DNA from: an uncultured Lachnospiraceae bacterium
Lineage (GTDB): Bacteria; Bacillota; Clostridia; Lachnospirales; Lachnospiraceae
Assembly (NCBI GenBank): GCA_947627245.1
Contig: CANQVH010000002.1
Coordinates: 62,001-126,000, forward strand
Length of the DNA: 64,000 bases
Direction: 5' to 3'
Shown: piece after piece, positions 15,531 to 57,483 of the stretch
Layout of the letters: every line of letters begins with the position of its first letter
How positions within the stretch are numbered: position 1 is the first letter of the stretch
Made by a program: the position numbers and the translations under genes
Notes under the pieces: generated by a model
What the model was told of the DNA's origin: nothing
Databases searched by the model: none
What the model saw: the letters and a program-made list of their open reading frames with translations, nothing else

Positions 15531-15569
15531 AAAGGAGGAAAAGCTGTAAAAAAGACAGCTACTAAAAGG
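15531..15569 (+). promoter_or_regulatory. Hairpin-bridged ribosome binding site (lipoprotein gene)
   Basis: AAAGGAGG (15531-15538) lies 31 bases from ATG 15570. Between them AGCTGT-AAAAAAG-ACAGCT (15542-15560) forms a perfect 6-base stem. Subtracting the stem-loop leaves 12 bases, an effective near-normal spacing. No start codon exists at ordinary distance. Confidence 0.65.
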
Positions 15570-17258
15570 ATGAAGAAAAGAACGGTACAGTTAGGAACTT
15601 TACTTCCGTTAACAGTCCTGATCATTTCAGCCAGCTTATCTGGATGTGCTCCGCATAAGGATACGAAAGAAACAGGACAGTTTGCGACAGACAGTGTTGT
15701 GCGCGAAACAGAGGCTGGTACAGAGCAGCATACAGAAACAGAGCCAATTACGGAAGCAGCTCTCTCGTTGAGGGATATCCAGGTCTCCATCAAAACTGCA
15801 GGACGCAGTGGAAACATGGAGTACCAGATTCTGGATCCGGATGGAGAAGAATCCGGAACATGCAAATTCTATGATTCAAAGGAAGCTTTTATGGCAGAAG
15901 ACGGCAACGGATGCTTTGCTTATTCTGACAAAAACGAAACAATGGCGCTTGATCGCGGAGCATGGTATGCAGAAGACGTGAAATACATGAATGTCTGGGA
16001 TACTGTGTATTCTGAAGACAGCAAACTTATGGACGATACGGTAATTGATGGAACCGAATGCTATCACATCTCGTCAGAATCGGATGATGAGCCGGGAGGG
16101 CTTATCAGTATATGCAATGCTCATGGATACCGCAATGTGATCAATGGCACCTGCCGGTATGACTTCTATATTTCAAAAGAAACTATGGAAATCGTACGCA
16201 TGGATGTTGAGATGAGTTATTTGGGAGATAAAAACGGATCGAGTGAAACAGGGAGTTTTACAGCAAGCTTTACCACCAGTGAGCTGAAGGATCAAGAAAT
16301 TGAACGTCCGGAAGTAGAAATCGTATCTGATACAGAGGAATATACTGCAGGCACTCTGGGGGATAACCTGTATAGCAATGACCAGTTTGGGATTCGTATT
16401 GCGGGAAAGGATCTTTTCACCTTCAATGCAGAAAGAACGTCCGAACTGGAGGAAAGCTATAAGTCGATGAACAGCCGCTATATGGAGGAAGCTTATGGTG
16501 AAGGCAATGGAGTTATTGTAAATATTTCATCAATTGCATCCGGAGCAGACACCAAAGAAAATATCATGGCAAAATACCTACAGGACAGCAATGCTTCCGG
16601 AATTCAGGCGGCTCCGGTCATAACGGTTGGGACAAATGAATATGCTGCTTCCACCGCAGATATTAACGGAACAATGACAAAGACATATTGTACCTCCTGT
16701 GATGGAAGATGCCTGGTAATTACGATATATTACAGTGAGTTGTCGGCTCCTGAAGTTTTTGAAGGGAACCTGTTCGGACCGGAAGATGACCCTAACTGGA
16801 CACCGCAGGACTGGACATTGCTGGGGAAATATACCGTAACAACTCCAGACGGATACAATGTCGTGAATGAGGACAGTAGCGACATATTTGTCTGCATGAA
16901 GGACGATTCCAACGAGGTTAATGTATTTGCAATCGAGGGCACTACCGTAGATAACGAGGCGCAATCCGAATCCGCATCAACAGACACTACATCAAAAAAT
17001 GTACAGAATCAAAGCGACATTGTGCTGGATGACGGATCTTCTATGAAATACCTTGAAATTTACAATGTAGAAGCGGAAGCCAGTTACTACACGTATATCG
17101 GATTGCTACAGAAAGATACCGCAGTCATCAAAATCTATGTGGTAAGTACAGCTCAGGCTGACTTTACAGGCATCTTTCACGATTTTGCCAATCGTGTGAT
17201 GTCTAATAGCAACACCGGCATACTGGAATCTGAGACCGGAATGCCGGAACAAAACTAA
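15570..17258 (+). CDS. Large exported lipoprotein
   Basis: The 562-residue product begins with a textbook lipoprotein signal peptide, MKKRTVQLGTLLPLTVLII followed by the lipobox LSGC (Cys about residue 26), so the mature protein is lipid-anchored outside the membrane. Upstream ATGs at 15486 and 15528 are in frame but would sit at the transcription start or overlap the Shine-Dalgarno sequence. A short Thr/Glu-rich linker follows (ETEAGTEQHTETEPITEA), then about 480 residues without a recognised domain, apparently two similar beta-rich halves. Thr/Glu repeats are shared with neighbouring exported proteins. It is followed after 15 bases by another exported protein gene. Role unknown, probably part of the surface complex. 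Confidence 0.75.
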   Translation: MKKRTVQLGTLLPLTVLIISASLSGCAPHKDTKETGQFATDSVVRETEAGTEQHTETEPITEAALSLRDIQVSIKTAGRSGNMEYQILDPDGEESGTCKFYDSKEAFMAEDGNGCFAYSDKNETMALDRGAWYAEDVKYMNVWDTVYSEDSKLMDDTVIDGTECYHISSESDDEPGGLISICNAHGYRNVINGTCRYDFYISKETMEIVRMDVEMSYLGDKNGSSETGSFTASFTTSELKDQEIERPEVEIVSDTEEYTAGTLGDNLYSNDQFGIRIAGKDLFTFNAERTSELEESYKSMNSRYMEEAYGEGNGVIVNISSIASGADTKENIMAKYLQDSNASGIQAAPVITVGTNEYAASTADINGTMTKTYCTSCDGRCLVITIYYSELSAPEVFEGNLFGPEDDPNWTPQDWTLLGKYTVTTPDGYNVVNEDSSDIFVCMKDDSNEVNVFAIEGTTVDNEAQSESASTDTTSKNVQNQSDIVLDDGSSMKYLEIYNVEAEASYYTYIGLLQKDTAVIKIYVVSTAQADFTGIFHDFANRVMSNSNTGILESETGMPEQN

Positions 17259-17273
17259 ACGGAGGTAGAAGAA

Positions 17274-18248
17274 ATGAAAAGAAAACAGTTATCGTTAATC
17301 TTGGCAGCAACTCTCTCTGCGGCATGCTCTATGTCTACTATTGCAGCGGATAGCGACAATATTATTGAGAATTTGGTAGTAGAGAGCGTTGACACGGGCG
17401 TAGATGCGTCAGAGGACGCAGCCGATATAGCCAGTATCGACGAGGCGCCTGAAAGCGAAGCGGCGGAAGAGGCAGAAACGGAAGCAGCGGAAGCTGCAGA
17501 AACGGAAGCGGCGGATGTAGAGGAAGAGGCGGAAAGTGAATCGGAGACGGAAGGGGACTTCGTCGAAGGATCCGCCGTCTTAAGTGATTATGATTATAAG
17601 CATGGCGAGCTTACAGAAGAGGGCTGGTCAAATGAATTTCTGAACATGATCTATATGCCTGGCAGAAATATCAGCATGGGTACCGCCGAGAACGATCAGC
17701 TTGCATCCTATTATGAACGTAACGGCGAGGATAAACAGGTTGCAGCAAATGAAATGGTTGCCGTTGACGATAAAGAAGGTTACGTTCAACTGATGGTTGA
17801 GGTAAACCCGAATCACGAGGATGCTGAGGATATCTTGGGACGTTTCAGCGAGAATGAGAAGCTTACGCTGGCCAGCGACCAGTCGGAGATGGAGATCGCA
17901 GGAAAGACTTTCCTTACCTGTACGGGTGTCGTAGACAAGGACCGCTTCCTGCTTGGTGTATGTACCGATGAGGACGATTTTGTTATCGCCGTAAAGGTTA
18001 AGTATGCAAATACTGTGGCGAGAAGGGCACTTCTGGACGGCTTTGACGTGGCAGAGGAGATCGAGGCTGCAGAAACTGAGGCGGAAACGGAAGTTAAGAC
18101 TGATGAGGAAGCCGAGGAAGCAGCAACTGAAAGTATCTTGGAAGAAGCGGCAGAGAGTGAGACGGAAGAAGGGCTTATCATGCCGGCAGAATTTGAAGAC
18201 GGGGAAATCTTTGAGGCAGATGAGACTGAAATCAGCGCTGTCGAGTAA
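17274..18248 (+). CDS. Exported highly acidic protein
   Basis: A 324-residue protein with signal peptide MKRKQLSLILAATLSAACS and likely cleavage after TIAA. The mature protein starts with a long Glu/Ala-rich segment (AAEEAETEAAEAAETEAAD, residues about 60-105). A compact domain at about 105-260 follows (HGELTEEGWSNEFLNMIYMPG), and then a second acidic Glu/Ala tail. There is no sorting signal or C-terminal membrane helix. The acidic repeats are low complexity and probably extended. Ribosome site GGAGG. It is co-transcribed with the lipoprotein gene 15 bases upstream, and a terminator follows. Function not recognised. Confidence 0.75.
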   Translation: MKRKQLSLILAATLSAACSMSTIAADSDNIIENLVVESVDTGVDASEDAADIASIDEAPESEAAEEAETEAAEAAETEAADVEEEAESESETEGDFVEGSAVLSDYDYKHGELTEEGWSNEFLNMIYMPGRNISMGTAENDQLASYYERNGEDKQVAANEMVAVDDKEGYVQLMVEVNPNHEDAEDILGRFSENEKLTLASDQSEMEIAGKTFLTCTGVVDKDRFLLGVCTDEDDFVIAVKVKYANTVARRALLDGFDVAEEIEAAETEAETEVKTDEEAEEAATESILEEAAESETEEGLIMPAEFEDGEIFEADETEISAVE

Positions 18249-18281
18249 ACAAAGGAACGCAGTAAAAAGAAGATTTATCAC

Positions 18282-18309
18282 AAAAGCCCGGCTTTTGGGT
18301 CGGGCTTTT
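18282..18309 (+). terminator. Intrinsic terminator
   Basis: AAAAGCCCG (18282-18290) and CGGGCTTTT (18301-18309) form a perfect 9-base stem after the exported acidic protein gene. The next gene starts only 21 bases later, so some readthrough is likely. Confidence 0.8.
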
Positions 18310-18329
18310 CAAGTGGGAGGAAATTCATT

Positions 18330-19124
18330 ATGGAAAACAATTATATTGCTTTCAGCGGTGTCTCAAATGTCGGGAACAAAATGAAAATCAATGAAGATTA
18401 TATTTCGTTTGATGATAACCAATTTGGTGATGATATCGTTTACTTTTCCATAGCTGACGGCTCTGGATCCAAAGAAAGTATGTTCCGCCCCGCAGCAATC
18501 GTTTCGAACCAAGCATTGAAATATATGGCAAGGTTTTTCAAGAAAGATGAAAAGCTATTCAAAGGGAATATTCGGACACTTATGGAAGAGTCCGTCTTAT
18601 CAGCGAATGATGTCCTCTGCGGCTTCAAGCTTGGAGCTGAGGAATCACGAATGGAATTCGCATCGTCTTTTACCTGTGCAACCCTTGAGAGAAATGGAGT
18701 CCTTACTTTTGCACATGCCGGAAATACGAGGCTTTACCTGATACGTGACCAGCGTACGGTTCAACTCACGACGGACCATACTATCGGGCAGAAGCTCGTT
18801 GATAAACAGGCTATAACAGAAGAGGAATACTATACCGCAATCGAACGTCTTCAGCTTTATAACGAGCTGGGGATGGTAGCAGACCCCTCGGTCCAGACCG
18901 CAAGGGTCAAACTCAAAAAAAATGACGTTGTCATTATGACAACTGACGGGATACATTACAACTTTCGGAAAGAAGCTTTTCTGGAAATTCTGCTCTCTAC
19001 ACAGACAATGGATGAAGCTGCACAGGAAATGGTAAAGACTGCGCTTGACTTAAAAACGTACCCGGATAATATCAGCGTCATTATTGCGTGGTACCTTGGA
19101 TCAGGGATGGAGGAGTCGCAATGA
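18330..19124 (+). CDS. PP2C-family (PPM) serine/threonine phosphatase
   Basis: The 264-residue protein spans a whole PP2C domain. N-terminal NEDYISF and the metal-binding ADGSGSKES (about residue 46) are followed by FASSFTCATL, HAGNTRLYLIR, TTDHTIGQ, TTDGIHYNF and DNISVIIAW (near the end). The conserved acidic residues that bind the two Mn/Mg ions are present. It should dephosphorylate Ser/Thr proteins in the cytoplasm. No partner kinase or STAS/anti-sigma gene is visible in the window, so it may act on host kinases or on the element sigma system. It overlaps the next exported protein gene by ATGA, indicating translational coupling. No separate promoter motif is seen. Confidence 0.85.
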   Translation: MENNYIAFSGVSNVGNKMKINEDYISFDDNQFGDDIVYFSIADGSGSKESMFRPAAIVSNQALKYMARFFKKDEKLFKGNIRTLMEESVLSANDVLCGFKLGAEESRMEFASSFTCATLERNGVLTFAHAGNTRLYLIRDQRTVQLTTDHTIGQKLVDKQAITEEEYYTAIERLQLYNELGMVADPSVQTARVKLKKNDVVIMTTDGIHYNFRKEAFLEILLSTQTMDEAAQEMVKTALDLKTYPDNISVIIAWYLGSGMEESQ

Positions 19125-19516
19125 AAAAATTCATTCTTATGGTGATTCTTGTACTGGCACTGTCACTGCCCCTAATAGCAACTGCTGAACCAGTGAATAC
19201 TTTCGACGGACAGTCTGCCCTTTTTGGGCTTAATGCTGGGCAATACATATGTGAATACGATGGGTGCAGGTTAATCTATTGTACCGGGCAGGATGCCTAT
19301 ACATATACAAGCACGAATATCCGGGCAATGCCTGATGCTTCCTCAGACAAGAAAAGTACGAAGGAAAGCGGAACGAGGGTAAAAATATGGGGATACACAG
19401 ATAACGGATGGTGTCTCGTCTATTATATATCTGACGACGGACAGGCGTGTTCCGGGTATATCAGATCTGACCTGTTGGATCTTCAGACGCCACAGAACGA
19501 AGAACAGCCTATATAA
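19121..19516 (+). CDS. Exported SH3-like domain protein
   Basis: 131 residues with a signal peptide (KKFILMVILVLALSLPLIA, cleavage near TAEP). The compact mature domain reads like a bacterial SH3 domain: YTSTNIRAMPDASSDKKST, GTRVKIWGYTDNGWCLVYYI, SGYIRSDLLDL. SH3b domains bind cell-wall peptides. Four cysteines (CEYDGCRLIYC and CLVYY/ACSG) could form disulphides. ATG 19121 overlaps the phosphatase stop (ATGA) and has GGAGG; a longer upstream frame is ignored. The gene after it encodes an NlpC/P60 hydrolase, so a shared wall-related task is likely. Confidence 0.75.
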   Translation: MKKFILMVILVLALSLPLIATAEPVNTFDGQSALFGLNAGQYICEYDGCRLIYCTGQDAYTYTSTNIRAMPDASSDKKSTKESGTRVKIWGYTDNGWCLVYYISDDGQACSGYIRSDLLDLQTPQNEEQPI

Positions 19517-19529
19517 CAAGGAGGTATTT

Positions 19530-24136: not shown

Positions 24137-24475
24137 TCATTTTTTCAAGGATGGCGTTTCGTCTGATAAAATGCCTGACTCAAAGGAATCTGCTTCAGAG
24201 GAAACCTCTGCATTCCCCTTCTCTATATCCTTGATTTTCTGATCAATTTCGGAATTATAGGAGGAAGCTTTTTCTTCAACCGCGTCAAAACCTTCCCGGA
24301 TCGTATTGTTGAGCTCCTCGTTTTGGGCTGAGACAGGTTTGCGTTCGTCTGACTTTGGAACAAAATCCGAATCTCGGTCGGCAGCGGTTGTATATTCCGG
24401 GATATCAGCATGATATTCATTACAGCCTCCAAGCATAAGAGCGGCAGTAAGGGCCAGCACCGCATACCTTTTCAT
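24137..24475 (-). CDS. Small lipoprotein at the end of the partition operon
   Basis: 112 residues with a lipoprotein signal peptide (MKRYAVLALTAALMLGGC, lipobox LGGC, Cys 18). The mature part is hydrophilic, Glu/Ser/Lys-rich and probably coiled (AEVSSEADSFESG), with no recognised domain. The start codon overlaps the stop of the preceding gene (TAATG), and GGAGG is well placed. It is unusual to find an exported lipoprotein as the last gene of a ParM-type operon. It may link to surface functions or simply be co-transcribed. Confidence 0.7.
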   Translation of the reverse strand: MKRYAVLALTAALMLGGCNEYHADIPEYTTAADRDSDFVPKSDERKPVSAQNEELNNTIREGFDAVEEKASSYNSEIDQKIKDIEKGNAEVSSEADSFESGILSDETPSLKK

Positions 24476-24756
24476 TAAAGCACCTCCATTTCTTCCTCTA
24501 ATACAGGTGATTCCTTTTTCGGTGTTACCTCAAAACCTGCCGTTACCATAGCATGCTTTACAAGATGATCATCACGAAGAGAGACCCCTTCGCTGGTCGA
24601 ACTCAGCATTTCAGTTACATATTCTGTTCCTTTTCCAGTGTCTGCTACAGCAAACGTCATAAATACTGGAATATTATATTTACTGCACAGAAGAAGGATT
24701 TCCTTTACATACCCCTTAATCTCTGAATCATATTCTTCGCGTCTTGAATAGCTCAT
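24475..24756 (-). CDS. Small protein with a hairpin-bridged ribosome site
   Basis: 93 residues from ATG 24756 (MSYSRREEYDSE). A longer reading from 24804 would translate straight through the Shine-Dalgarno AAAGGAGG and a stem-loop, so the shorter start is preferred. The central part, EILLLCSKYNIPVFMTFAVAD, followed by LKH-type basic residues, reads like a small alpha/beta domain. The acidic end contains LEEEMEVL. No family is named with confidence. It sits between the ParR-like and lipoprotein genes and overlaps the latter by a base-level TAATG junction. Confidence 0.6.
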   Translation of the reverse strand: MSYSRREEYDSEIKGYVKEILLLCSKYNIPVFMTFAVADTGKGTEYVTEMLSSTSEGVSLRDDHLVKHAMVTAGFEVTPKKESPVLEEEMEVL

Positions 24757-24799
24757 TTCGTAACTATTGGCAGGACAACCAGTCCTGTCTTCCTCCTTT
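24757..24799 (-). promoter_or_regulatory. Hairpin-bridged ribosome binding site (93-residue gene)
   Basis: Minus strand: AAAGGAGG (24799-24792), then CAGGAC-TGGTT-GTCCTG (24787-24771, perfect 6-base stem, extendable by one G-C past a mismatch), then ATG 24756. Distance is 35 bases, effective distance about 14-18 without the stem-loop, the longest of the six cases. Confidence 0.5.
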
Positions 24800-25421: not shown

Positions 25422-26603
25422 TTACCTCCTGTCCAAATACGATACCTTGCCTACAAGGAAATAGTAGTATCCCCTTACATTTGAGTAGATGTTTGTCAAG
25501 TTCGGATCGTTGCGGTCAGCAGAAAGGATCCGAAGGCTGTCCATATCCTTAAACTGGTCCTCAATCGCGGCTTTCCATGCATCGCCAGTCCCGCCGGTAA
25601 TGATCAGGTTGTCATGCTCCTGAAGGTAGTCGTATATGGAGAACAGCTTTTGAACAGCCTCATCACATACTTCTCTCGTGTTCTTGTCTAAAAGAGCTTC
25701 GAACTCGCTTGTGAGCTTTGTGCTCTGTATACGGCCCTGACTGCGGCGGAAGGAGGAAACATATCCTTTCTTTAGCGCCTTTTGCATGCCGGATACGGTA
25801 AGGCGCGTCCCGTATGTGTTGTTTGTATCATCCACGGTACGCCGGAACACTTCGTACATGCCAAGCGTGTCGAAGGTATTACCAGTTCCTTTTACGATTC
25901 CGGCGGAAATATCAAAAAGATCAAGCGTCTTAAACCCGGGATCGACCACAAGCGTGTTGGACTTCAGGATGTCCTCTCCGTCCGGACAGAACGAACCATT
26001 ATTCATTGTTATGGCTGAGAATAGAGCACCTTTCGGCTGGTCCATGACGAAAATATTGCTGCTTTTGATGGTGAACCGGAACCTCTGGAACGGGCTTTTG
26101 CCGATCCTAAGTTCGAATTCATAGTCACCTGCAAGTGCTTCCGTGATAAGACTGGCATCGTTAAACTCCTTGTACTTGGGCGGAAGGCCTGTCTGAACAA
26201 GGATAGGTTCCCCTTTATACTTCCGGAAATGATTCCCGGACAGTCCGATCCCGAGACCTACCTTCATAAGCGCTTTAAATGAGGGAGAGAAATAACGGTT
26301 CCTTTCGTACATTTCCGACTCATAATTCATGGCGTTTTCCGGAGACATGATATCAAAGGCTTTTTCTCCGACAATCCAAAGTCCATCCTTGTCCTTGAGC
26401 AGTATATCATGGTCGGATGCATTTACAAGGGACTCAAACGTATCTACCTGTACTGCACAGTTAGGAAAGCAGAATACCTTGTTTGGGGCGAACCCTTTTA
26501 CACCGGAAAAACCATAATCGATACCAATCGTCCATGCAGTCTGGACATTTTTGTTTACCCGGTGGTTGATTTCGGTTCTTGTAACATAATCAGATAAGTT
26601 CAT
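25422..26603 (-). CDS. parM: ParM-like actin-family ATPase for DNA segregation
   Basis: The 393-residue protein has the actin/Hsp70 nucleotide-binding motifs. Phosphate-1 is IGIDYGFSGVKGFA (about residue 27), phosphate-2 is LVVDPGFKTLDLFDI (about 215), and the adenosine motif is LIITGGTGDAW (about 345). A ParM/Alp-type fold polymerises to push replicon copies apart, working with a ParR adaptor and a centromere. ATG 26603 (MNLSDYV) is taken as the start. An in-frame ATG at 26642 overlaps the Shine-Dalgarno and would translate the leader hairpin. The first gene of a four-gene minus-strand operon read from its own element-type promoter. The centromere is probably in the 26604-26861 divergent region. 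Confidence 0.85.
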   Translation of the reverse strand: MNLSDYVTRTEINHRVNKNVQTAWTIGIDYGFSGVKGFAPNKVFCFPNCAVQVDTFESLVNASDHDILLKDKDGLWIVGEKAFDIMSPENAMNYESEMYERNRYFSPSFKALMKVGLGIGLSGNHFRKYKGEPILVQTGLPPKYKEFNDASLITEALAGDYEFELRIGKSPFQRFRFTIKSSNIFVMDQPKGALFSAITMNNGSFCPDGEDILKSNTLVVDPGFKTLDLFDISAGIVKGTGNTFDTLGMYEVFRRTVDDTNNTYGTRLTVSGMQKALKKGYVSSFRRSQGRIQSTKLTSEFEALLDKNTREVCDEAVQKLFSIYDYLQEHDNLIITGGTGDAWKAAIEDQFKDMDSLRILSADRNDPNLTNIYSNVRGYYYFLVGKVSYLDRR

Positions 26604-26639
26604 ATTTTTTCTTATCCCTGACAGGGATAAACCTCCTTT
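26604..26639 (-). promoter_or_regulatory. Hairpin-bridged ribosome binding site (parM)
   Basis: Minus strand: AAAGGAGG (26639-26632), one T, then the palindrome TTATCCCTGTCAGGGATAA (26630-26612, stem at least 7), then GAAAAAAT and ATG 26603. Real distance is 28 bases; effective distance without the stem-loop is 9. The palindrome could also be a protein operator. Confidence 0.7.
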
Positions 26640-31723: not shown

Positions 31724-34700
31724 ATGCTTACATTGCACAAAATGAAAAAAGTCCTGAATACAAGCAAGCCTTCCACCCCGGAAAATGATTTCAAAATCCT
31801 TGACTCGTGGACAGAAGTTGAAGAAGGCTCGACATCAAAGGATGCAAAGCTGAAATACCTCTGCTACAAGATTGAGACGATCGATCCGGAGTCAGGCGAT
31901 AAGAACGTGATTTACAAAGCAGTGAAATTTGCGCGGGTAATGCGCCTTCCGAAGTCAGCAAAGCAAAGCACTTCTTTCATGGACATGCAGTCACAGGTGC
32001 TTGCGGCCGTTTATGAACAGGGTTATAACCTTGTTACGGTCATCGCAAATGTCATCCGCCCGACTGCAGAAGGACTCATGTACCTTTACGGTGTACAGGG
32101 CGTCGCAGACAATATTGACGAAGCAAAGAAAAGGGCGAGCTCAGATTTCTCCGGATTTATTGGAAGCATGATGGGCACATTCCGCGTACTCCACATCCGT
32201 ACCGTTACCGTGGAGGAAGGGGCATGGCTTGCCGAAAAGATGCGCAGTATGAAGTTTATGACGGCCGTCCGCGGGATCCCGAAGGCCAACACCGAGGGTG
32301 AGGATATGGGCAACAAGGGCGTCGGCGGTACGAATCTCAACCCGGATTCGCAGGGTACGCTGGAAGAATTGATCACGGCAATGGCTGACCAAGAGTATGT
32401 GATTGAGGTACTTTCAACGCCTGTCTACATGAGGACTCTCATGTCATGGTCCTCCCAGACGCAGAAACAGATGACCGAATGGTATGGGCAGTTGCAGGGT
32501 ACAAAGTCGCTTTCATTCAATCTTTCCATCCCTATGACATATATGACCTCGACAGGGTCCAGCCAAGGATGGAGCAAGAATTATACGGATTCAAGGAACG
32601 TATCCTATACACAGGGCGAATCATACAATACTGGTTACAGTGAAAACGTAGGGAGCTCGATACAACAGTCGTTGGGTCAGTCGTTCGGCATTTCGAGGGG
32701 GCATTCCCTCACGGACTCGGTCGGTGAGAATTCCTCCGTAAGCAACGGTGTCACAAGGGGGCACACCGTGGGTGAGACTAATGGGATCACCCATGGACAG
32801 ACATACGGGGAAACGATCGGTCATACGACAGGTATCACCAGAGGATATACGCAGGGAGTGACGAAGGGGACCTCGTCTGGATTCACGATTGGTGAAAACC
32901 AGGGAAATAACTACGGGAAATCAGTAGGAGAAAGTCTGGGCGAAAGTACGAACAAGTCTTTTAGTTCAGGGGCGTCATCTTCCCAGTCGGTCAGCCAAGG
33001 CAGCGGGAAAAGCTATTCTGAAAATTTTGGACAAAGCAGCAACAAGAGCCTCGGACAGAGCAGCAACACAAGCTATGGGGAGTCGCAGAATATCTCCCAT
33101 TCGCAGGGAACAAGCCAAAATAGGTCCTTCTCTGCGGGAGAAAGCCACAGTACCGGAACATCGAGCAGCATATCCGGGAGCCATGGGGGAAGCGAAAGCT
33201 CAAGCAGCAGCGACGGCGGGTCCACATCTTGGTCAAATGGCACATCGTCGAACCTTGGTTTTTCATCTGGTGAAGGGAAATCAGATGGAGGTACACAATC
33301 GCTCACATTGTTTGCATATAACCACGGCGGGAACCATTCGACAACGACAAATGCAGGGGCCAGCTATGGATTAAGCAAGTCGAGCTCCGAAGGTGGGAGC
33401 ACCACTTGGAGTGACAGCCATTCAACCGGCACATCGTGGAGCAATTCCTCTTCGTACGGGTCATCAACCAATGATGGATATTCCGAATCGCAGTCGCAGG
33501 GGTATGGTGCCTCTGAGTCCTTCAGCAGTGGAAGCGGAAGCTCATACAGCGAAGGGCATGGGACCTCATACAGTGAAGGCTTTGGAAATTCCTACAGTAA
33601 AGGTGAGAACCTGTCTTATTCCAACAGCAACAGCAGCAGCGTGGGACAGACAAGCGGCGTTTCGGATGGCTACGGGTCCAGCAAAAGCTCAAACCTGTCG
33701 GAAAATACAGGACAGTCTTATTCGATGTCCATAAGCAAGAATCAGGGAACGAGCTTTTCCTCGTCCATGTCGCAGTCAGTGAGCCAAAGCGAAAGCGTGT
33801 CAAATTCAAAGAGCAGCAGCGTGAGCCAGAGCAATTCGTATTCTCAGTCTGTGAGCGACAGCAGCAGCACGTCGCAGTCCGTATCCAATGGACAGAGCAA
33901 ATCCAGATCCGTTGGCGAATCGGACAGCCAGTCCTATACACAGTCCCTTTCCAACGGGCTTGGGAAGAGCTGGGGACAGTCTACAAGCGTAGGAAAAGGG
34001 CAGAGCTATGGCACAAGCGAGGGGGAGAGCCAGGGGACCAGCATGGGAAGCTCCGGCACTTTCACGACCGGGACGTCCGGATCAATGGGCCTTGGCCCTT
34101 CCATCGGGTACAGCAAGTCCTATCAGTGGATGGATCAGCAGGTTAAGGATATTCTCGAACTGCTTGAATACCAGAACGAAAGGCTTAAAAAGGCGCTCAG
34201 GGGCAATGGCGCTTTCTACACGTATGTCTATATTGCATGCGACAATATGGATGCACTTGCCACTGCACAGGCTGCCGCAAAATCTACTTGGCAGAATACA
34301 TATGCAATGACACAGCCCATACAGGTGCTCGACCTTACGGATGAAGAACAGCAGCACCTGCTATATCATTTCCGGGCGTTTTCGGCTGATGTGACCCGAG
34401 AGGTTGTATCAGGGGTTAGCGATTATAAGTACGCTACCGTGCTTTTGCCGGATGAGTATGTGGCATATACGCACTTGCCGCGTGTGTCTGAGGGCGGCAT
34501 TGATACCAATGTTGATGACGTACCGAAATTCCGTGTACCGGGACTGATGCGTGGTGGGATCTACATGGGCACGCAGCTAAATGCTGAACGGTATACGTTC
34601 CTGAACGGGTACCGGACGCAGTTCGATTACCGCCTCAGCATAGACGAGCTGATGCACGGGATCTGTACAGGACAGTCAAGATCCGGCAAAACGGTTGCGG

Positions 34701-35962
34701 CTATGCGGTTCATCCGCGAGCTTGCTAATGCGAGGCGTACCGCTACAAATAAGCGCCTGCGTATTGTGATTATGGACCCGAAACAGGACTGGCGTGGCAT
34801 TGCACGCTTTGTCGAACCGGAACGGTTCCGGTTCTACTCGATGGGCAACACACATTTCCATCCGATCAACCTGAACCCTTGCAAGATCCCGTACGGGGTG
34901 GAACCGCAGCACTGGATCGACGGTATCATCAACATTTACTGCCGTGCATATGGGCTGCTAGAACGTGGTAAGCAGATGCTCTCAGATGTATTCTATGCGC
35001 TTTACAATGAGCAAAAAATATTTGATGAAAAGGAAGCCAATAAACATGGCGGACCGGAAAGCGATGAATGGAAGAGGGAGGTTTCAAGACGTTCCGGTAC
35101 GGTTACATTCCATAAAGTGTATAAGAAGATGGAACAGACACTGGGATCCTTTAATGGCAAGGACAAAAAGGCCGGAAATGATACTCTGGATGCATATTCG
35201 AGGCTGCTGGAGCGTCTGTCCTGTTTTGCAAGGCCATACTCTATTGAGTACCGGCTGTTCTCCGCAGAAACAGACTTTGAGGATGTAGAATCAAAGGGTA
35301 TCGGATATGGTATAGATGAGCTGATCGGTGCTGATGATGTTACTGTGTTTGAATCATTCGGGCTGGAGTCCACGTTTGCGAACTTTATCTTCGGAATCAT
35401 CACCTCCGGATTTTACAAGGTTGCGAAATCCTTTGAACGGGGCTATCTGAACCCGGCACAGTTCGAGACCGTGCTGGTCATAGAGGAAGCAAACAAGGTC
35501 CTTACGGGCAACGATACAGCGGGCAGCGGCGGGCAGCAGTCGGTGAGCCTGTCCGGACAGTCGGAATTTGAGGAGATCCTCGACCAGTCTGCAGGTTACG
35601 GACTGTTCATCTTTGCCATCACACAGAAGCCGTCCATGATGCCCTCCAGTATCATTGCGAACTGCGGGCTGCTGTTCATGGGCAGGCTTACACAGCCGGA
35701 GGATGTAAACCTCGGCGTGCGTATGATCGGCAGGGAAGAGCGCATCGAGGATAGGGATATCGTGAAGTGGCTCCCGAAGTCTCCGACCGGATGGTTCATC
35801 TGCCGTTCGAGCCGTGGCTATAATTTCCTTGACGCAGAGCCTGTACTGGTACAGATCGAGCCGCTCAACAATGCCACGATCTCCAATGCGGAGCTTAATG
35901 AAATCCTTGTCCGAAAGAGGATTGCGGAATACGTGAAAGGATCAGAGCAGAAATATGCGTAG
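31724..35962 (+). CDS. HerA/VirB4-type ATPase with a giant Ser/Gly/Thr-rich insertion
   Basis: A 1412-residue protein. Residues 1-280 form an alpha/beta N-terminal domain (FARVMRLPKS, GYNLVTVIANVIRPTAEGLM). About 280-800 is low complexity, with Ser, Gly, Thr, Gln and Asn alternating. A second folded part starts at 800 (DQQVKDILELLEYQNERL). The P-loop ATPase has Walker A GQSRSGKT near 985, MDPKQDW, and Walker B VLVIEEANK near 1250. ITQKPSMMPSSIIANC follows, then FMGRLTQPEDV, which are typical of HerA/VirB4/TraC DNA or protein pumps. It is probably a hexameric motor under the membrane. It directly precedes the Tad operon. AGGAGGTGA precedes the start. The insertion splits the N-terminal domain. 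Confidence 0.85.
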   Translation: MLTLHKMKKVLNTSKPSTPENDFKILDSWTEVEEGSTSKDAKLKYLCYKIETIDPESGDKNVIYKAVKFARVMRLPKSAKQSTSFMDMQSQVLAAVYEQGYNLVTVIANVIRPTAEGLMYLYGVQGVADNIDEAKKRASSDFSGFIGSMMGTFRVLHIRTVTVEEGAWLAEKMRSMKFMTAVRGIPKANTEGEDMGNKGVGGTNLNPDSQGTLEELITAMADQEYVIEVLSTPVYMRTLMSWSSQTQKQMTEWYGQLQGTKSLSFNLSIPMTYMTSTGSSQGWSKNYTDSRNVSYTQGESYNTGYSENVGSSIQQSLGQSFGISRGHSLTDSVGENSSVSNGVTRGHTVGETNGITHGQTYGETIGHTTGITRGYTQGVTKGTSSGFTIGENQGNNYGKSVGESLGESTNKSFSSGASSSQSVSQGSGKSYSENFGQSSNKSLGQSSNTSYGESQNISHSQGTSQNRSFSAGESHSTGTSSSISGSHGGSESSSSSDGGSTSWSNGTSSNLGFSSGEGKSDGGTQSLTLFAYNHGGNHSTTTNAGASYGLSKSSSEGGSTTWSDSHSTGTSWSNSSSYGSSTNDGYSESQSQGYGASESFSSGSGSSYSEGHGTSYSEGFGNSYSKGENLSYSNSNSSSVGQTSGVSDGYGSSKSSNLSENTGQSYSMSISKNQGTSFSSSMSQSVSQSESVSNSKSSSVSQSNSYSQSVSDSSSTSQSVSNGQSKSRSVGESDSQSYTQSLSNGLGKSWGQSTSVGKGQSYGTSEGESQGTSMGSSGTFTTGTSGSMGLGPSIGYSKSYQWMDQQVKDILELLEYQNERLKKALRGNGAFYTYVYIACDNMDALATAQAAAKSTWQNTYAMTQPIQVLDLTDEEQQHLLYHFRAFSADVTREVVSGVSDYKYATVLLPDEYVAYTHLPRVSEGGIDTNVDDVPKFRVPGLMRGGIYMGTQLNAERYTFLNGYRTQFDYRLSIDELMHGICTGQSRSGKTVAAMRFIRELANARRTATNKRLRIVIMDPKQDWRGIARFVEPERFRFYSMGNTHFHPINLNPCKIPYGVEPQHWIDGIINIYCRAYGLLERGKQMLSDVFYALYNEQKIFDEKEANKHGGPESDEWKREVSRRSGTVTFHKVYKKMEQTLGSFNGKDKKAGNDTLDAYSRLLERLSCFARPYSIEYRLFSAETDFEDVESKGIGYGIDELIGADDVTVFESFGLESTFANFIFGIITSGFYKVAKSFERGYLNPAQFETVLVIEEANKVLTGNDTAGSGGQQSVSLSGQSEFEEILDQSAGYGLFIFAITQKPSMMPSSIIANCGLLFMGRLTQPEDVNLGVRMIGREERIEDRDIVKWLPKSPTGWFICRSSRGYNFLDAEPVLVQIEPLNNATISNAELNEILVRKRIAEYVKGSEQKYA
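32560..34110 (+). repeat. Low-complexity Ser/Gly/Thr coding insertion
   Basis: About 1.5 kb encodes short degenerate units such as GHTVGETNGITHGQT and SQSVSQSESVSNS with S, T or G at almost every second residue. Ser codons are mixed (AGC, TCG, TCA, TCC, TCT), so selection acts on the protein pattern and the array is not a recent DNA slippage product. Confidence 0.8.
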
Positions 35963-36001
35963 AAAGGAGGCCCTCCTGCTTGCAGGAGGGCAGTTTAAAA
36001 A
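35963..36001 (+). promoter_or_regulatory. Hairpin-bridged ribosome binding site (152-residue gene)
   Basis: AAAGGAGG (35963-35970) is followed at once by CCCTCCTGCTTGCAGGAGGG (35971-35990, at least 7 paired bases), then 11 bases and ATG 36002. Real distance is 31, effective 11. The 3' arm itself contains AGGAGG, so an alternative reading is sequestration of a second ribosome site. Confidence 0.65.
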
Positions 36002-37399: not shown

Positions 37400-37432
37400 A
37401 AGGAGGATCCGGCATACACCCGGGAAATTCAT
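37400..37432 (+). promoter_or_regulatory. Hairpin-bridged ribosome binding site (tadZ)
   Basis: AAGGAGG (37400-37406), then TCCGG-CATACAC-CCGGG (37408-37424, four G-C pairs plus a G-U), then eight bases and ATG 37433. Real distance is 26, effective 9. The weakest stem of the six. Confidence 0.5.
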
Positions 37433-38977
37433 ATGAAAAGGATCATTTTCGGAAGCACGAGAAACGAACTTATTCAAGACATGAAGATTGGACTTGTTCT
37501 GGATAATTATGACGAGGACTATGAGCTCAGGCTGGTAACGTCGCCTGATGACATCGCCCGGGAAGTAGCTGATAGCCGTCCGGATTTGATAGTCCTCGAT
37601 TACAGCATGCTCTCCATGAGAGATGCTTGGAAGTTTGACGACATCCCGGTCGCTTATTCCGCAAAAGACAGGGAAGAACTGAACCTCGGTTCGGTGTATG
37701 GGATTAAAACCATTGGGATTGCGTCATCAGCATCAGATATTCTCAACAAGCTTAGGAAAGAGCCGTATGATATCGAAAGACATGATATTTCCAAGACCGG
37801 TCATGGGCATCAAACCCATGCTGTACCAGAAAAAAACGCGGATGCAGCGGTGAAAACGGAAAACAGTAAAAACCCGCCTGAAAGAAATACGGAAGGACTC
37901 GAAGAACTGGAAGAGCTTGAGGATGTCGATGATTTTGATGACCTGTTCGACTTGGATATCTCTTCAGGAGCAGAAGCGGAAACGCCAGAGGAGCCAGACA
38001 CCGGTTGGGCCGATGATGAACAGCCGGATTCTGGGAAAGAACCCATGCAAAGAAAGAATGCCAAGCCGACCGAGGATGATGTGATCGAGCAGGAATTCAG
38101 GAAGGATATTTCGCCAAATAAAGGTAAAACGAAGGTAGTAACGGTATATTCAGCCAAGGGCGGGGTTGGAAAGACTACCATAGCAACCGAACTGGCTGTA
38201 TATCTGTCGCTTGTATCCGCCGGCAGGGATAAACTGCGAGTTTGCCTGATTGATTACAACATAGACTTCGGGGATGTGAAAGGTACCCTTGCGCTTAAGG
38301 ATGAAGGGCCAAACCTTACATATTGGGCAGATGAGGTTCAGGAGTACCTCTCCAAAGGGAAAAAGCCAGAGGAGATTGTATATGACCGGAATGGAATTGA
38401 AGAGTGGTTGCGTATATACAAGGACACCGGACTGTATGTGCTTCCGGCACCGCTTACAAACGAGGATAGTATGGGAATTGAAACAGAAGCCCTTGATATT
38501 ATCCTTACGAATCTTATCAGGAATGGTGAGTTTGACTTCATCGTATGCGATACCGGCAATAATACAAGGGATTCGACTATGATCGCTTTGGAACATGCAG
38601 ACACGATACTGCTTGTTATGACCCAAAATGTCAATACGGCTTTCTGCGATAAGGCCTTCCTTGAAACAATGAAATCTATTGACTTCGATATGTCGAACAC
38701 GAAACTCGTGATCAACTATATTATGCCAAAAAAGTCAACGGGAATATCTGTTCAGGAAATCGTCGAGTTTTTCCCTTATGAATGCGTCGGGAAGCTCAGG
38801 TTTAACACAGATGTTATCACTGCCACGAACCTTGGTCTGCCGCTCGCGGTCAACGAGCCTGACAGCGATTTCATTTCACAGATGAGAAGCATCGTCGCAT
38901 TCCTTCTAAAAGGAAGCGAATTTGAGGTTAATAAGAAACCGAAAAAGCGTCTTTTCGGGTTCTTAGGAAAGAGGTGA
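37433..38977 (+). CDS. tadZ: TadZ/CpaE-like pilus localisation ATPase
   Basis: A 514-residue protein. Residues 1-120 form an atypical receiver-like domain (RPDLIVLDYSMLSMRDAW). A Glu/Asp-rich linker spans 140-220. The ParA/MinD-type ATPase has a deviant Walker A, VYSAKGGVGKTTIATELAVY (about 241), then CLIDYNIDFGDVKGTLAL, and Walker B-like FIVCDTGNNTRDSTMIALE. CpaE/TadZ proteins place the Tad machine at its cell-envelope site. The ATG is set by the frame and by the bridged ribosome site, with no alternative start near AAGGAGG. It lies between the cpaB and tadA homologues. Confidence 0.85.
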   Translation: MKRIIFGSTRNELIQDMKIGLVLDNYDEDYELRLVTSPDDIAREVADSRPDLIVLDYSMLSMRDAWKFDDIPVAYSAKDREELNLGSVYGIKTIGIASSASDILNKLRKEPYDIERHDISKTGHGHQTHAVPEKNADAAVKTENSKNPPERNTEGLEELEELEDVDDFDDLFDLDISSGAEAETPEEPDTGWADDEQPDSGKEPMQRKNAKPTEDDVIEQEFRKDISPNKGKTKVVTVYSAKGGVGKTTIATELAVYLSLVSAGRDKLRVCLIDYNIDFGDVKGTLALKDEGPNLTYWADEVQEYLSKGKKPEEIVYDRNGIEEWLRIYKDTGLYVLPAPLTNEDSMGIETEALDIILTNLIRNGEFDFIVCDTGNNTRDSTMIALEHADTILLVMTQNVNTAFCDKAFLETMKSIDFDMSNTKLVINYIMPKKSTGISVQEIVEFFPYECVGKLRFNTDVITATNLGLPLAVNEPDSDFISQMRSIVAFLLKGSEFEVNKKPKKRLFGFLGKR

Positions 38978-50157: not shown

Positions 50158-50501
50158 CTGGTTCATGGAAAAACATCATTCCTATATGCGGGAACCATAA
50201 AGGGGAAAGGATTGAAATGTCGGTTAATTCCGGGCCGCATTCCATGTTTTACTCCTGCCCGAAGTATTACCCGCAAAACAGGACAAGTACAGAAAGAGCC
50301 TGCAGCAACAGGATCAATCTGATCGAGTACGAAGCAATGGTAGACCATATTCATGGACTCATTGCTGAAGCAGAGCTTTCCGGAGGGAAGGTGGATCTCA
50401 CAAATCATACATGGTCCAAAAAGGGGATCAATTACCGTGTCATCGAGCATAAGGGCGATAAGGTATATGTAGAGATCCTGAACCATAAAGCACTTAAGTA
50501 A
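50145..50501 (+). CDS. Small Cys/His-containing protein
   Basis: 118 residues. The first half contains spaced cysteines and histidines (IPICGNHKGERIEM, FYSCPKYYPQ, RACSNRINLIEYE), compatible with one zinc ribbon. The second half is helix then strands (EYEAMVDHIHGLIAEAELSG, GINYRVIEHKGDKVYVEIL). It could be a small nucleic-acid or protein adaptor. Overlap with the peptidase gene and GGGGG upstream support translation. A terminator follows. Confidence 0.65.
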   Translation: MYSIAGSWKNIIPICGNHKGERIEMSVNSGPHSMFYSCPKYYPQNRTSTERACSNRINLIEYEAMVDHIHGLIAEAELSGGKVDLTNHTWSKKGINYRVIEHKGDKVYVEILNHKALK

Positions 50502-52209: not shown

Positions 52210-52238
52210 GTTTTTTGCTTGAAAAGGGGATGAAAATG

Positions 52239-52246: not shown

Positions 52247-52276
52247 GACGCAAATAGTTTACAGGAGGTATTGGAA

Positions 52277-55200: not shown

Positions 55201-56338
55201 TGTTGAAGCAAACAAGGGAACAGAAATTGGGATGGCCCCAGAAGGAACTGTAGCAAAAATAGAAGTGACTCCAGATGTAACAACAGAAGCAACAGCAGGA
55301 ACCGAAACGACAGGGCAGGAACCGGAAATGCCTCCATTAGAGGGTGTGGGATCACAGCAAAATGAAGGCTCCCAAGAAAATTCAACTGTTACACCCAGCA
55401 ATGCGGCAGGAACCGGTGCGACCTCTGAAATCCCCGAGTCAGTACAGGGTGAAAATATGGGCCCTGCTACCGAGATACAAGAAGGAGTTGGCATCACGGC
55501 TGCAGAAGAACCTATGGCTCCCCCTATTACTGAGACAATCGAGGCAGCTATTTCCGATTACTTTTTTAATGATATGTCGAGTGTCGATGACATGTTGAAC
55601 ACAGTGATCGGCACCAATAGCGATGGAACAGATTTTACTATTAAAGATGCGATTGACGGCGAAATCCTTTCTGAGCGGGATTTTGCGGGGCTAATCGCTT
55701 CCTCGATAAACAATGTTGCAGATAAACTGGCCGATAATGATACTGCATTAAGTTCAGTATCGAACCTGATTAATGACATGGGAGACCGCTTTGATTCAAA
55801 TTACTTTGGAGGTGAAGTTCTCGAACGTCAATTTGATCCATTAACTTCAGACGAAGCCGAAGATATTGAAGAGAAAATTTCACAGTCACTGCTTAATGAT
55901 AACCAAGATGGGGTGTCCACAGAAAAGAGTGACGAAGGAGAACATCCTACCGCCAGTGAAATTAAGGGAATAGAAGATGGTGTTATTACCGACAGCCAAG
56001 AAATAATCGAAGCAGAAGTGCCAGATGTAGCTAAGACAGAAGGTGATAATATTGAAGTAAAAAATCCTCCGGATCTTGAAGCAGAGACGGGACAAAGGAT
56101 TGAAGCGGAAGAGGCGGACCGGGGCTTTACTTATGATCAGGCAGCCAATAACGCCGAACCGCCGGTTGATTCCCCTCCGGCAGAAACGCCAAAACCATAC
56201 TCCGGAGGTGTTGATGGTTCTGATAATCCCAGTAAACTGCCACAGCCAGATGCTTTATCGGATATCATCAAGGAAAACATTGACGGTGATGATGGGGCTG
56301 GTGATGGGGCTGATGATGACGGAGATCCAATAGAATGA
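52277..56338 (+). CDS. Giant uncharacterised acidic protein
   Basis: 1353 residues, no signal peptide, and acidic overall. Residues 1-400 are helical (FLSEQIRLPNNLNISTVGEA, SYEKTLDTLNEHNVFD). A charged linker follows at about 400-445. A second helical part at 445-950 contains SFRLNNDLAVRDSGVLADRF (about 640) and AEAHGRSIIWNPTSNDKINK (about 820). One hydrophobic stretch near 910 (LNIFDFIIISVIDAIVKAIV) could be a buried or membrane helix. From about 940 on come Glu/Ala/Pro-rich linkers interrupted by one more helical block. The very end is Gly/Asp-rich (DGDDGAGDGADDDGDP). Codons are A/T-rich compared with its neighbours. CAGGAGG precedes ATG 52277. No family is recognised. Its size and repeats of hydrophobic helices would suit a scaffold or an exported effector. 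Confidence 0.7.
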   Translation: MADNNINPYVDRIKYETHATVDSVISSFLGNSDNSSFLSEQIRLPNNLNISTVGEAIEKGAISAKDMGSFVADYAYMNASSLNSDAQAFSDFRGVITELRDNLPGDFKDEFAGQIRTLAHEENHDPDFDSVGTMCVWVADNMTEEFFNNIEATVYSLCSPVIDESESTIPSFISSVEHILTFDGKSDIEPAIQTVTQAVYDAAMVLETRYPGSYEKTLDTLNEHNVFDIGNGKQVTLDFKETLGERKDSSVTSDVIGKAVYEADKYNHNDSSNLVPSIISNNLKPINDAISNAGSGPSIQEEIKNGIIKGIVTIANINDLYSIPPKELGQAIDRSSIADLCGLKEGEAENAVDHADIMSLVGESIENNPFDIVYNIKDTPHSVDTGIDKETPETGKKDKAESSGAAEIEEPESRAKEIASQNESVESKAHEVRDQQKMDTPRSGIDAICDRLDGYSFDDKDLNQNILTVDVKNDLTALKNVISNNGEAVNALFSIYMGSLDNTKTIDKGEFQTIVKGLSYSMANAVNSEAGNTIIDRDWEAIKEESKKDNSPDNLNNTVKDYINNITTVVREMSAYFPTGDEWKPIIEKCMNTISANMEKIPDDIKKQEAESGNDWALFSKSTDAEGNVSFRLNNDLAVRDSGVLADRFGFSVEGQVVARAEGFDSVGQAADALESRIGVFNSMHDIDKGIPKFYSGDIDHLKDAMTRYSENKLDEKTMPMEMKEAMSKYAEATQKLYGITLIDTDKIQDVIDGALGNKDLLNEFSGKVDISPDKEGGFSRASNMIETGQRQETIRTGKGDDTVASKFAVETAAAEAHGRSIIWNPTSNDKINKFIEIRNECIKDSAIFPVYRMNPIYCYSEMRAVLSAAAKGEAINGKVPGVFECYYVINQFAHLNIFDFIIISVIDAIVKAIVGDLNDKVANDSESPTDTDASSKMKEQGGEEAILAPAAEVSKEENAEEPADAAKKETGQADVEANKGTEIGMAPEGTVAKIEVTPDVTTEATAGTETTGQEPEMPPLEGVGSQQNEGSQENSTVTPSNAAGTGATSEIPESVQGENMGPATEIQEGVGITAAEEPMAPPITETIEAAISDYFFNDMSSVDDMLNTVIGTNSDGTDFTIKDAIDGEILSERDFAGLIASSINNVADKLADNDTALSSVSNLINDMGDRFDSNYFGGEVLERQFDPLTSDEAEDIEEKISQSLLNDNQDGVSTEKSDEGEHPTASEIKGIEDGVITDSQEIIEAEVPDVAKTEGDNIEVKNPPDLEAETGQRIEAEEADRGFTYDQAANNAEPPVDSPPAETPKPYSGGVDGSDNPSKLPQPDALSDIIKENIDGDDGAGDGADDDGDPIE

Positions 56339-56364
56339 TGTAAGCAGCGGAAGGGGTGATTGGA

Positions 56365-56751
56365 ATGAACCAGACATATGTTATCTGTATATTATTCGCG
56401 GCAGCTCTCGCGGGTGTTATCGCAGGGTTCTACATTGGCATGAGTGTTTCTGTCTGGCTTTACGAATCAAAACAGAAAAAACTACGCCGGATGAGTCAAA
56501 AGAATAACAGCCCACATGAGAAAAATAAGAAACCGGACGTGCCTGCCAAGCCGGCTGAACCATTGCAAGAGCTTAATCCTGCTGAAATGGAAGAGAACCC
56601 GGACAACCCTGCTGCAGAAGAGATCAGCCACAGTTATATGGGCTTTATCTGTGATAACGAAGAGCAGGATGCGGTTTCAAAGATACGTGCAGCAAGGAAG
56701 ACACAAGATGATAAATATATGAGCCGGGCAAACAAAAGAAAAAAAGCATAA
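56365..56751 (+). CDS. Small N-terminally anchored membrane protein
   Basis: 128 residues with a single N-terminal membrane helix (VICILFAAALAGVIAGFYIG) followed by a basic stretch (ESKQKKLRRMSQKN) and a Pro/Glu-rich cytoplasmic tail with EEISHSYMGFICDNEEQ. The positive-inside rule places the tail in the cytoplasm. ATG 56365 follows GGAAGGGG. It lies 26 bases after the giant gene and is co-transcribed with it, so it may anchor it. A strong terminator follows. Confidence 0.65.
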   Translation: MNQTYVICILFAAALAGVIAGFYIGMSVSVWLYESKQKKLRRMSQKNNSPHEKNKKPDVPAKPAEPLQELNPAEMEENPDNPAAEEISHSYMGFICDNEEQDAVSKIRAARKTQDDKYMSRANKRKKA

Positions 56752-56755
56752 AAAT

Positions 56756-56793
56756 ATCCTGTAACATGGCAAGCATGTTACAGGATGTCTTTT
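56756..56793. terminator. Strong terminator between convergent genes
   Basis: ATCCTGTAACATG-GCAAG-CATGTTACAGGAT, a perfect 13-base stem, followed by GTCTTTTTCTTT. Confidence 0.88.
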
Positions 56794-56805
56794 TCTTTGT
56801 GACTT

Positions 56806-57450
56806 TTACTCCCTGATGAGTGTCACGCCACTCGCCACGATCGACGTAAGCACGATGTTACGGCCTGTATTATCGTTCTCGCGCTCGCGCTTTGTACGAA
56901 TTGAACCTGATACGTAGGCGAAATCCCCTTCCTTTGGCTCCAGCGCCATGAAACGGTCAAAGTAAGTGAAGTTCACAAGGCTTGCCCGTCCTTCGCCATC
57001 CATATTCGGAATGCTGATCGTCGGAATGTAGAACTTCTTGCCCGGATCCGCATTGCGGTACACACGGACTACTTTTCCGCCAAGCACTACCGTGTTCATA
57101 TCACGGCGTGGAGCGAAAGGCTCGATCATATCTGCACACAGATCAAGTGCCCACACCCCTTTAAAGAGGCCGGATTCCTGACGGCGCATATTCCTGCTGA
57201 GGCCGCCTACGTGTCCGATGATGGAAATGCGGTCATTTACACTGAGCGATTTACTCAGTTCCTCAGCCTTGTCCCCATATACATGGAATCTCGGAATGTC
57301 ATGATGCCAGCTATTGCTTTCCGGTGTGCTCCCAAGCTTTGGTGCGCTTGTCAGCAGCAGAATGCTCAGTTCCTTGGAGTTTTCCTCGTAATGAAGATAC
57401 AAGATCTTTCCACTGCACTGAATAAAATTCATGTAGTTTTTATCTGCCAT
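56806..57450 (-). CDS. Tandem SSB-like OB-fold protein
   Basis: 214 residues from ATG 57450 (MADKNYMNF). A longer frame from 57516 would read through the Shine-Dalgarno and leader hairpin. Two SSB-like units are visible. The first has NFIQCSGKILYLHYEEN, PRFHVYGDKAEELSKSL and ISIIGHVGGL. The second has NTVVLGGKVVRVYRNADPGK, VNFTYFDRFMALEPKEGDFA and YVSGSIRTKRERE. The pattern V-x-G-x-(V/I) followed by a strand, then F-x-A-x-x-x-x-x-G-D-x-x-x-V-x-G, is the core of bacterial SSBs. No acidic tail. It likely protects single-stranded DNA. A monocistronic minus-strand gene convergent with the giant-gene operon and divergent from recJ. Confidence 0.7.
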   Translation of the reverse strand: MADKNYMNFIQCSGKILYLHYEENSKELSILLLTSAPKLGSTPESNSWHHDIPRFHVYGDKAEELSKSLSVNDRISIIGHVGGLSRNMRRQESGLFKGVWALDLCADMIEPFAPRRDMNTVVLGGKVVRVYRNADPGKKFYIPTISIPNMDGEGRASLVNFTYFDRFMALEPKEGDFAYVSGSIRTKRERENDNTGRNIVLTSIVASGVTLIRE

Positions 57451-57483
57451 AGCTTTGCGGGTGCATATAGCACCTCCTCCTTT
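57451..57483 (-). promoter_or_regulatory. Hairpin-bridged ribosome binding site (SSB-like gene)
   Basis: Minus strand: AAAGGAGG (57483-57476), one A, GGTGC-TATAT-GCACC (57474-57460, perfect stem), then nine bases and ATG 57450. Real distance is 25, effective 10. An ATG in another frame inside the hairpin reads only eight codons. Confidence 0.65.

Follow-up and report, generated by a model that had tools for sequence, protein, structure and literature searches.

How can a gene be translated when its strong Shine–Dalgarno (SD) sequence stands 25-35 nt upstream of the start codon? This question is raised by six genes in a stretch of 64,000 nt (here called the window) of contig CANQVH010000002.1 from an uncultured Lachnospiraceae bacterium. 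Judged from gene order and similarity, the element that carries these genes is a segment of a megaplasmid resembling pRUMAL01 of Ruminococcus albus 7 (NC_014824). In each of the six leaders, a hairpin can form between the distal SD and the AUG. We are slightly inclined to think that several genes of this segment use split, or accommodated, ribosome binding sites of the kind described for genes 25 and 38 of phage T4. The computed support consists of the geometry of the leaders, an excess of hairpins, the lack of any strong SD closer to the start at sites 1, 2, 3, 5 and 6, and a start codon that is backed by homology at sites 2 and 3. Bridging by the hairpin is clearest at sites 1 and 3 and weaker at sites 2, 4, 5 and 6; sites 4 and 6 may work otherwise.

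In the proposed mechanism, the 30S subunit would pair with the strong SD that precedes the AUG by 25-35 nt, and the spacer would fold into a short hairpin. The effective distance between SD and AUG would become about 9-12 nt at sites 1, 3, 4, 5 and 6 and 18 nt at site 2, and this shortened distance would let the AUG enter the P site. Acceptance of the folded spacer by the ribosome, and a need for the hairpin in translation, are what we infer. The comparison with T4 made in the original prediction is apt; the anatomy matches. Intervening RNA structure brings the SD of gene 38 from 22 to 5 nt and that of gene 25 from 27 to 11 nt, destabilizing changes reduce initiation, and mutation, reporter and probing data exist for these genes (PMC3014915). 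For gene 25, the arrangement occurs in closely related T-even phages but not in relatives further removed (PMC3014915). Both systems have a strong SD that lies too far away and a hairpin in the gap. They differ in that T4 offers two genes of one phage, whereas in the window as many as six genes, unrelated to one another, share a plasmid segment, with distances of 25-35 nt that are read from the sequence. No other SD or start codon is at hand at sites 1 and 2; the same is nearly true of sites 3 and 5, where proximal pairing is weak, but not of sites 4 and 6. The inhibitory leaders of T4 e, soc, 49 and I-TevI likewise place local structure at the translation start, and site 4 also hides a second SD. 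However, those leaders mask the SD and/or the AUG, whereas the window sites keep their main SD outside the stem (PMC3014915, PMC2988022). Taken singly, each site is of a known kind; what is new is that such sites recur within one plasmid segment. A literature search of limited depth turned up no description of hairpin-bridged SDs recurring on a plasmid.

Geometry and folding of the six leaders

At site 1, the distal SD (AAAGGAGG, 15531-15538, + strand) stands 31 nt before AUG 15570, and a hairpin of 6 bp (AGCUGU/ACAGCU, 15542-15560, -6.9 kcal/mol) leaves a residual spacing of 12 nt. The gene (15570-17258) encodes a putative lipoprotein without a Pfam match; by eye, its compact signal MKKRTVQLGTLLPLTVLIISASLSGC, with what we take to be a lipobox, begins at AUG 15570. 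Site 3 lies on the - strand, with the SD AAAGGAGG (26632-26639) 28 nt before AUG 26603. Its 8-bp hairpin UUAUCCCU/AGGGAUAA (26612-26630, -9.4 kcal/mol) reduces the spacing to 9 nt, and the gene (25422-26603) encodes a ParM-like actin (ALP_N) according to a Pfam match and homologues. Site 2, also on the - strand, precedes the third gene of the parM cluster (24475-24756, 93 aa). Here AAAGGAGG (24792-24799) stands 35 nt before AUG 24756, with a 6-bp hairpin in between (CAGGAC/GUCCUG, 24771-24787, -9.6 kcal/mol) and a residual spacing of 18 nt.

The SD of site 4 (AAAGGAGG, 35963-35970, + strand) comes immediately after the stop that ends the ATPase gene upstream and stands 31 nt before AUG 36002, the start of a RemA-like gene (PF04025, 36002-36460, 152 aa). 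Its 9-bp hairpin GCCCUCCUG/CAGGAGGGC (35970-35991, spacer -14.5 kcal/mol) leaves 11 nt. At site 5, AAGGAGG (37400-37406, + strand) lies 26 nt before AUG 37433 of a gene for a TadZ/ParA-like ATPase (37433-38977, identified by Pfam and homologues). The stem, UCCGG/CCGGG (37408-37424), is weak, with four Watson-Crick pairs and an outer G-U pair (-5.2 kcal/mol), and leaves 9 nt. Site 6, on the - strand, has AAAGGAGG (57476-57483) 25 nt before AUG 57450 and a 5-bp hairpin GGUGC/GCACC (57460-57474, spacer -8.4 kcal/mol) that leaves 10 nt and holds another AUG (57466) in its loop. The gene (56806-57450, 214 aa) is weakly SSB-like. These SDs, AUGs, distances and stems agree with the original prediction, as do the residual spacings, except that the 14-18 nt given for site 2 becomes 18 nt. 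The labels parM and tadZ hold too, but the SSB match at site 6 falls below the Pfam cut-off (23.1 bits against 26).

The strength of the SDs was scored as pairing with a 10-nt 16S tail, and 33 other genes, hand-picked from the element with exclusion of overlapping or doubtful open reading frames (ORFs), served for comparison. In 31 of the 33, the zone at normal distance from the start pairs at -7.2 kcal/mol or stronger, the exceptions being 26823 and 7728. In the same zone, sites 1, 2, 3, 5 and 6 reach only 0 to -4.7 kcal/mol: pairing is 0 to -1.1 at sites 1, 2 and 6 and weak at sites 3 (-4.7) and 5 (-4.3). The distal SDs of all six sites pair at -11.5 to -14.3 kcal/mol.

The fraction of 1000 letter shuffles per spacer that fold as well as the spacer itself is 0.000, 0.025, 0.002, 0.001, 0.052 and 0.013 for sites 1-6, respectively. 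Moreover, all six hairpins persist when the SD and the AUG are constrained to be unpaired, mimicking the ribosome-bound state. The stems are unrelated in sequence, none recurs beside another SD in the DNA examined, and at sites 1, 2, 3, 5 and 6 they sit between a strong SD and a start that has no other strong one; these points, with the persistence of the hairpins, favour structure over a shared protein site. Other known types of element were set aside. No Rfam family matched in the window at gathering scores, so that a known leader element had 0 matches; terminators were dropped as no U run follows the stems (by eye), and a dispersed repeat as none of the stems reappears beside an SD elsewhere in the DNA examined. 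Look-alikes of the short stems with one or two mismatches occur a few times elsewhere in that DNA. A mirror of the six-site layout was seen at the SSB gene at 14625, where a 7-bp hairpin stands directly upstream of a normal SD (14580-14620, + strand).

The predicted start, the downstream AUG, has the backing of homologues at sites 2 and 3. The homologue of the 24756 gene in another genome, G122, aligns from residue 1 at the proposed AUG, and ParM homologues of pRUMAL01 (36%), pCY360 (36%), pB6464 (26%) and G122 do so at AUG 26603. At site 4, the family match of the RemA-like protein begins at residue 1, and an in-frame stop lies just upstream. Upstream of the AUG of site 5 there is no ATG, GTG or TTG in frame, but the homologues of its product align from residue 219 onward only. 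In-frame ATGs do occur upstream of the SD at sites 1, 2, 3 and 6. At sites 1-3 these ATGs lack a strong SD, as judged by eye; at site 6, ATG 57516 overlaps a promoter-like motif that is described below.

Frequency of bridged starts in the element, the host and other plasmids

Since the sites had been picked by eye, every AGGAGG on both strands was scanned. The scan retained each AGGAGG without an ATG, GTG or TTG of a long frame 4-14 nt downstream that was followed by an ATG at 20-37 nt (a far-only start), and asked for a bridging stem. In the strict count, each start has one row, expectations come from shuffled spacers, and a start is bridged if the stem has at least 5 bp. Between 6.4 and 64 kb of the window, 21 normal starts were counted beside seven far-only starts (11504, 15570, 25786, 37433, 57450, 26603 and 24756). 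Four of the seven, at sites 1, 2, 3 and 6, are bridged, against 0.37 expected (P = 1.5e-4). Stems of at least 6 bp are found at three of the seven (expected 0.105, P = 8e-5). By this count, the stems of the window exceed chance.

The unbridged far-only starts of the window are 11504, 25786 and site 5, the last because its outer pair is G-U and strict pairing was required. Site 4 is outside the set because an AGGAGG within its stem stands 12 nt before the AUG. The same scan over other contigs of this genome (the host), 1.5 Mb in all, finds 87 far-only starts, of which 14 are bridged by at least 5 bp and three by at least 6 bp; Fisher tests of the window against the host give 0.024 and 0.0047, respectively. 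A looser count that keeps site 4 gives 5/8 bridged starts in the window (expected 0.54) vs 16/122 in the host (expected 11.4). If far-only starts are limited to probable gene 5' ends, i.e., frames that are open for at most 110 nt upstream, they are commoner in the window, with a ratio of far to normal SDs of 5:21 vs 15:410 in the host (p = 0.0037); this filter drops site 1. With the weaker SDs GGAGG and AGGAG, 8 of 32 far-only starts are bridged in the window (expected 2.2) and 86 of 826 in the host (expected 70.3). The rest of contig C2, to which the window belongs, has one bridged case of 5 bp among three (L019:908).

Bridged starts also occur on other elements. The scan for an SD, a stem and an AUG in this order covered 418.2 of the 420.7 kb of pRUMAL01, 200 of the 361 kb of pCY360 and 41.7 of the 436 kb of pB6464, besides contig C2 of G122. 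Two convincing cases each were found in pRUMAL01 and on the G122 contig, and none in the 200 kb of pCY360; the original prediction had suggested such a search of related elements. One pRUMAL01 case is the annotated start of the PP2C gene RS17040 (L022 37601), with GGAGG at 25 nt and a stem of 7 bp (spacer -12.4). In the second, RS18010 (L110:40702), AGGAGG at 25 nt is followed by the hairpin GCAAGGCG/CGCCCUGC, with one mismatch, and then by an ATG. This upstream ATG gives the lipoprotein signal MKKIKLLSFILSACMLSAC, and the annotated start lies 14 codons later, inside the signal; this annotated start appears to be wrong, 14 codons too late. On the G122 contig, the start at 80294 has AGGAG at 35 nt and a 10-bp stem, and a second convincing case, at 50240, has AGGAGG at 23 nt. 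Further candidates with weak SDs, taken from a list based on minimum free energy, were judged unconvincing by eye.

In numbers, one of six far-only starts of pRUMAL01 is bridged in the strict AGGAGG scan, and 3 of 41 in part of the plasmid with weaker SDs (expected 1.4); for GGAGG and AGGAG on the G122 contig, the count is 8 of 43 (expected 2.29). pRUMAL01 resembles the window in its collinear Tad-type module, a serine-rich ATPase (54% identity), a ParM homologue and its two bridged starts, but its hairpins stand before other genes, and its parM and tadZ have ordinary SDs. The bridged genes of G122, too, differ from those bridged in the window.

Points against bridging and rival explanations

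A number of observations weigh against bridging. Whole leaders folded with their context are unremarkable (z of -0.4 to -1.2), except at site 4 (z of -2.92), and a longer site 3 leader favours a different fold. At site 2, a second predicted hairpin places the AUG in its loop, and the residual 18 nt compares with 5-11 nt in the T4 cases. Given these differences, the uniformity that the original prediction ascribed to the six sites is not supported, as site 4 has a second SD in its stem, site 6 has a normally spaced AUG and the stem of site 5 is marginal. When the longer ParM frame is used as a query, the alignments to pRUMAL01 and pCY360 reach a few residues upstream of the AUG, past the annotated starts, which is taken as noise. 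Unfiltered, the ratio of far to normal SDs shows no excess in the window (7:21 vs 87:410 in the host, p = 0.31). In the host, too, stems of at least 6 bp are mildly in excess when the weaker SDs are counted (35 vs 21.7 expected), so that letter shuffles may understate chance. As the pattern was picked by a reader scanning many windows, all p values are optimistic.

To these are added the results for relatives. The hairpin is absent from the orthologous leaders that were found, i.e., those of parM in pRUMAL01, pCY360 and G122, of tadZ in pRUMAL01 and pB6464, and of the 24756 gene in G122; these leaders carry ordinary or weak SDs. Two stretches of the same genome, contig C9 and contig C1 from 80 kb to its end, probably belong to the same plasmid, given a common promoter-like motif and some genes like those of pRUMAL01 or pB6464. 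In these, none of four far-only AGGAGG starts is bridged, and with weaker SDs the count equals expectation (3/41 vs 2.9), with one stem of 6 bp (L030:11157). No close relative was found in the collections searched. The ATPase encoded from 31724, used whole or as its C-terminal 622 aa, retrieved only its own genome among 295 genomes of the order, 391 of the class, 47 of the genus and 397 of the family, and ParM retrieved its own genome and G122 among 200. Genome contigs scanned with ParM, or with the 31724 ATPase in the form of an alignment, gave no relatives, and neither did scans of viral contigs. The site 3 leader DNA matched its own genome alone among 21 genomes, a G122 gene matched G122 alone among 250, and neither the site 4 protein among plasmids nor the 31724 ATPase among phages had a match. 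Since the distant orthologues that were seen have no hairpin, the arrangement seems young in this lineage.

Besides bridging, several explanations can be considered; each may hold for single sites, and their likelihoods do not sum to one. The loop start codons could be the true partners of the distal SDs, with a ribosome that ends a short frame restarting at the overlapping AUG of the gene. This is a fair rival at site 6, where the loop ATG 57466 stands 9 nt after the SD and opens a possible leader ORF of eight codons, read directly from the DNA (57440-57466, - strand), that closes just inside the gene. At site 4, the TTG at 35980, also 9 nt after the SD, opens a frame that overlaps the AUG of the gene. 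The claim that no start codon lies at normal distance consequently fails at these two sites. By eye, a CTG stands 9 nt after the SD at site 2, its frame ending in a TGA that overlaps the ATG of the gene, and another, in the reading frame of the gene, 7 nt after the SD at site 3, but CTG is a poor start codon. In the interval 5-12 nt after the SD, sites 1, 3 and 5 contain neither ATG nor GTG nor TTG, and site 2 offers just a TTG at 13 nt. Moreover, the loops of pRUMAL01 RS18010 and of the G122 start at 80294 hold no start codon (by eye). As a general explanation, reinitiation is unlikely. Somewhat less likely still is that the hairpin hides a proximal SD and is melted by the ribosome finishing the upstream gene. 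The 3' arm of site 4, AGGAGGG, does contain a second AGGAGG (35984-35989), 12 nt before the AUG and pairing at -10.8 kcal/mol. As the upstream stop codon abuts the distal SD, coupling through this hidden SD is a fair rival there; at sites 1, 2 and 6 no proximal SD exists to be hidden, and at sites 3 and 5 there is only weak pairing.

Coincidence, with some starts misjudged or served by weak sites and stems that arose by chance, is about as improbable as reinitiation. The look-alikes in the host are many and occur at about the chance rate (14/87; 16/122), the site 5 stem is weak, four sites have in-frame ATGs upstream and the probable plasmid contigs show no excess. Against this stand the four bridged starts of seven in the window, the homologues that, for sites 2 and 3, start from the downstream AUG, and the upstream ATGs, which have no strong SD at sites 1-3 and overlap a promoter-like motif at site 6. 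It is very improbable that the stems serve a DNA-binding regulator as inverted-repeat operators or that they are mobile repeats. Stems are inherently palindromic, and a promoter-like motif lies upstream at three sites, but the six sequences are unrelated, none is repeated beside another SD in the DNA examined, and the position of the stems is fixed relative to the SD and the AUG and not to that motif.

If hairpin-bridged SDs do recur on mobile elements, some starts will have been misannotated, as gene finders expect the SD a few nucleotides ahead of the start; RS18010 of pRUMAL01 is a likely example. The distance rule for bacterial initiation would be softer than taught, and a mechanism known from two T4 genes would extend to Clostridial megaplasmids, providing several natural sites for studying how the 30S subunit accommodates a folded spacer. 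A further step would be a switch, in which partition, Tad-type secretion, RemA-like, SSB-like and lipoprotein genes are translated only while the hairpin stands, and in which temperature, ribosome traffic or an RNA-binding factor encoded by the element could set several genes together. Such a switch is improbable, more so than any of the translational rivals above. For the shared translational control layer suggested in the original prediction there is no positive evidence, as the orthologous leaders have no hairpin and the contigs probably of the same plasmid no excess.

The megaplasmid segment and its promoter-like motif

From about 6 kb of the window onward, the GC content falls from 55-58% to 38-52%. 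Gene order and similarity follow pRUMAL01, with SSB, ATPase, CpaB-like, TadZ, TadA, TadB/C, peptidase and exonuclease genes. The ATPase (31724-35962, + strand, 1412 aa) has a long serine/glycine-rich insert and corresponds to the 'serine-rich protein' of pRUMAL01. It has no Pfam match, its weaker plasmid matches are annotated as DUF87, and it seems to be a marker of this plasmid family. A similar ATPase and a Tad-type block are found on pB6464 of Alkaliphilus, and a related ParM and a DHH protein on pCY360 of Butyrivibrio.

The motif ACATATT[AG] occurs 20 times in the window (7735-59482), compared with 0-2 times for each of six scrambled controls. Sixteen of the 20 copies lie within 130 nt upstream of a gene start on the same strand, and all 16 have only A or T at positions -27 to -25. 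The motif, which is present upstream at sites 1, 3 and 6, looks like an element-specific promoter. It could be read by a protein with a sigma-70 region 4 that the element itself encodes (8396-9592, + strand); pRUMAL01 and pCY360 each have a sigma-70 gene as well. Beside the lower-GC element, a GyrB/ParE-like gene and a topoisomerase A-like gene, the latter 32% identical to one of pRUMAL01, occupy 1030-5389 (+ strand) at about 58% GC. pRUMAL01 has toprim and topoisomerase A genes; the two genes of the window may belong to the host or to the plasmid.

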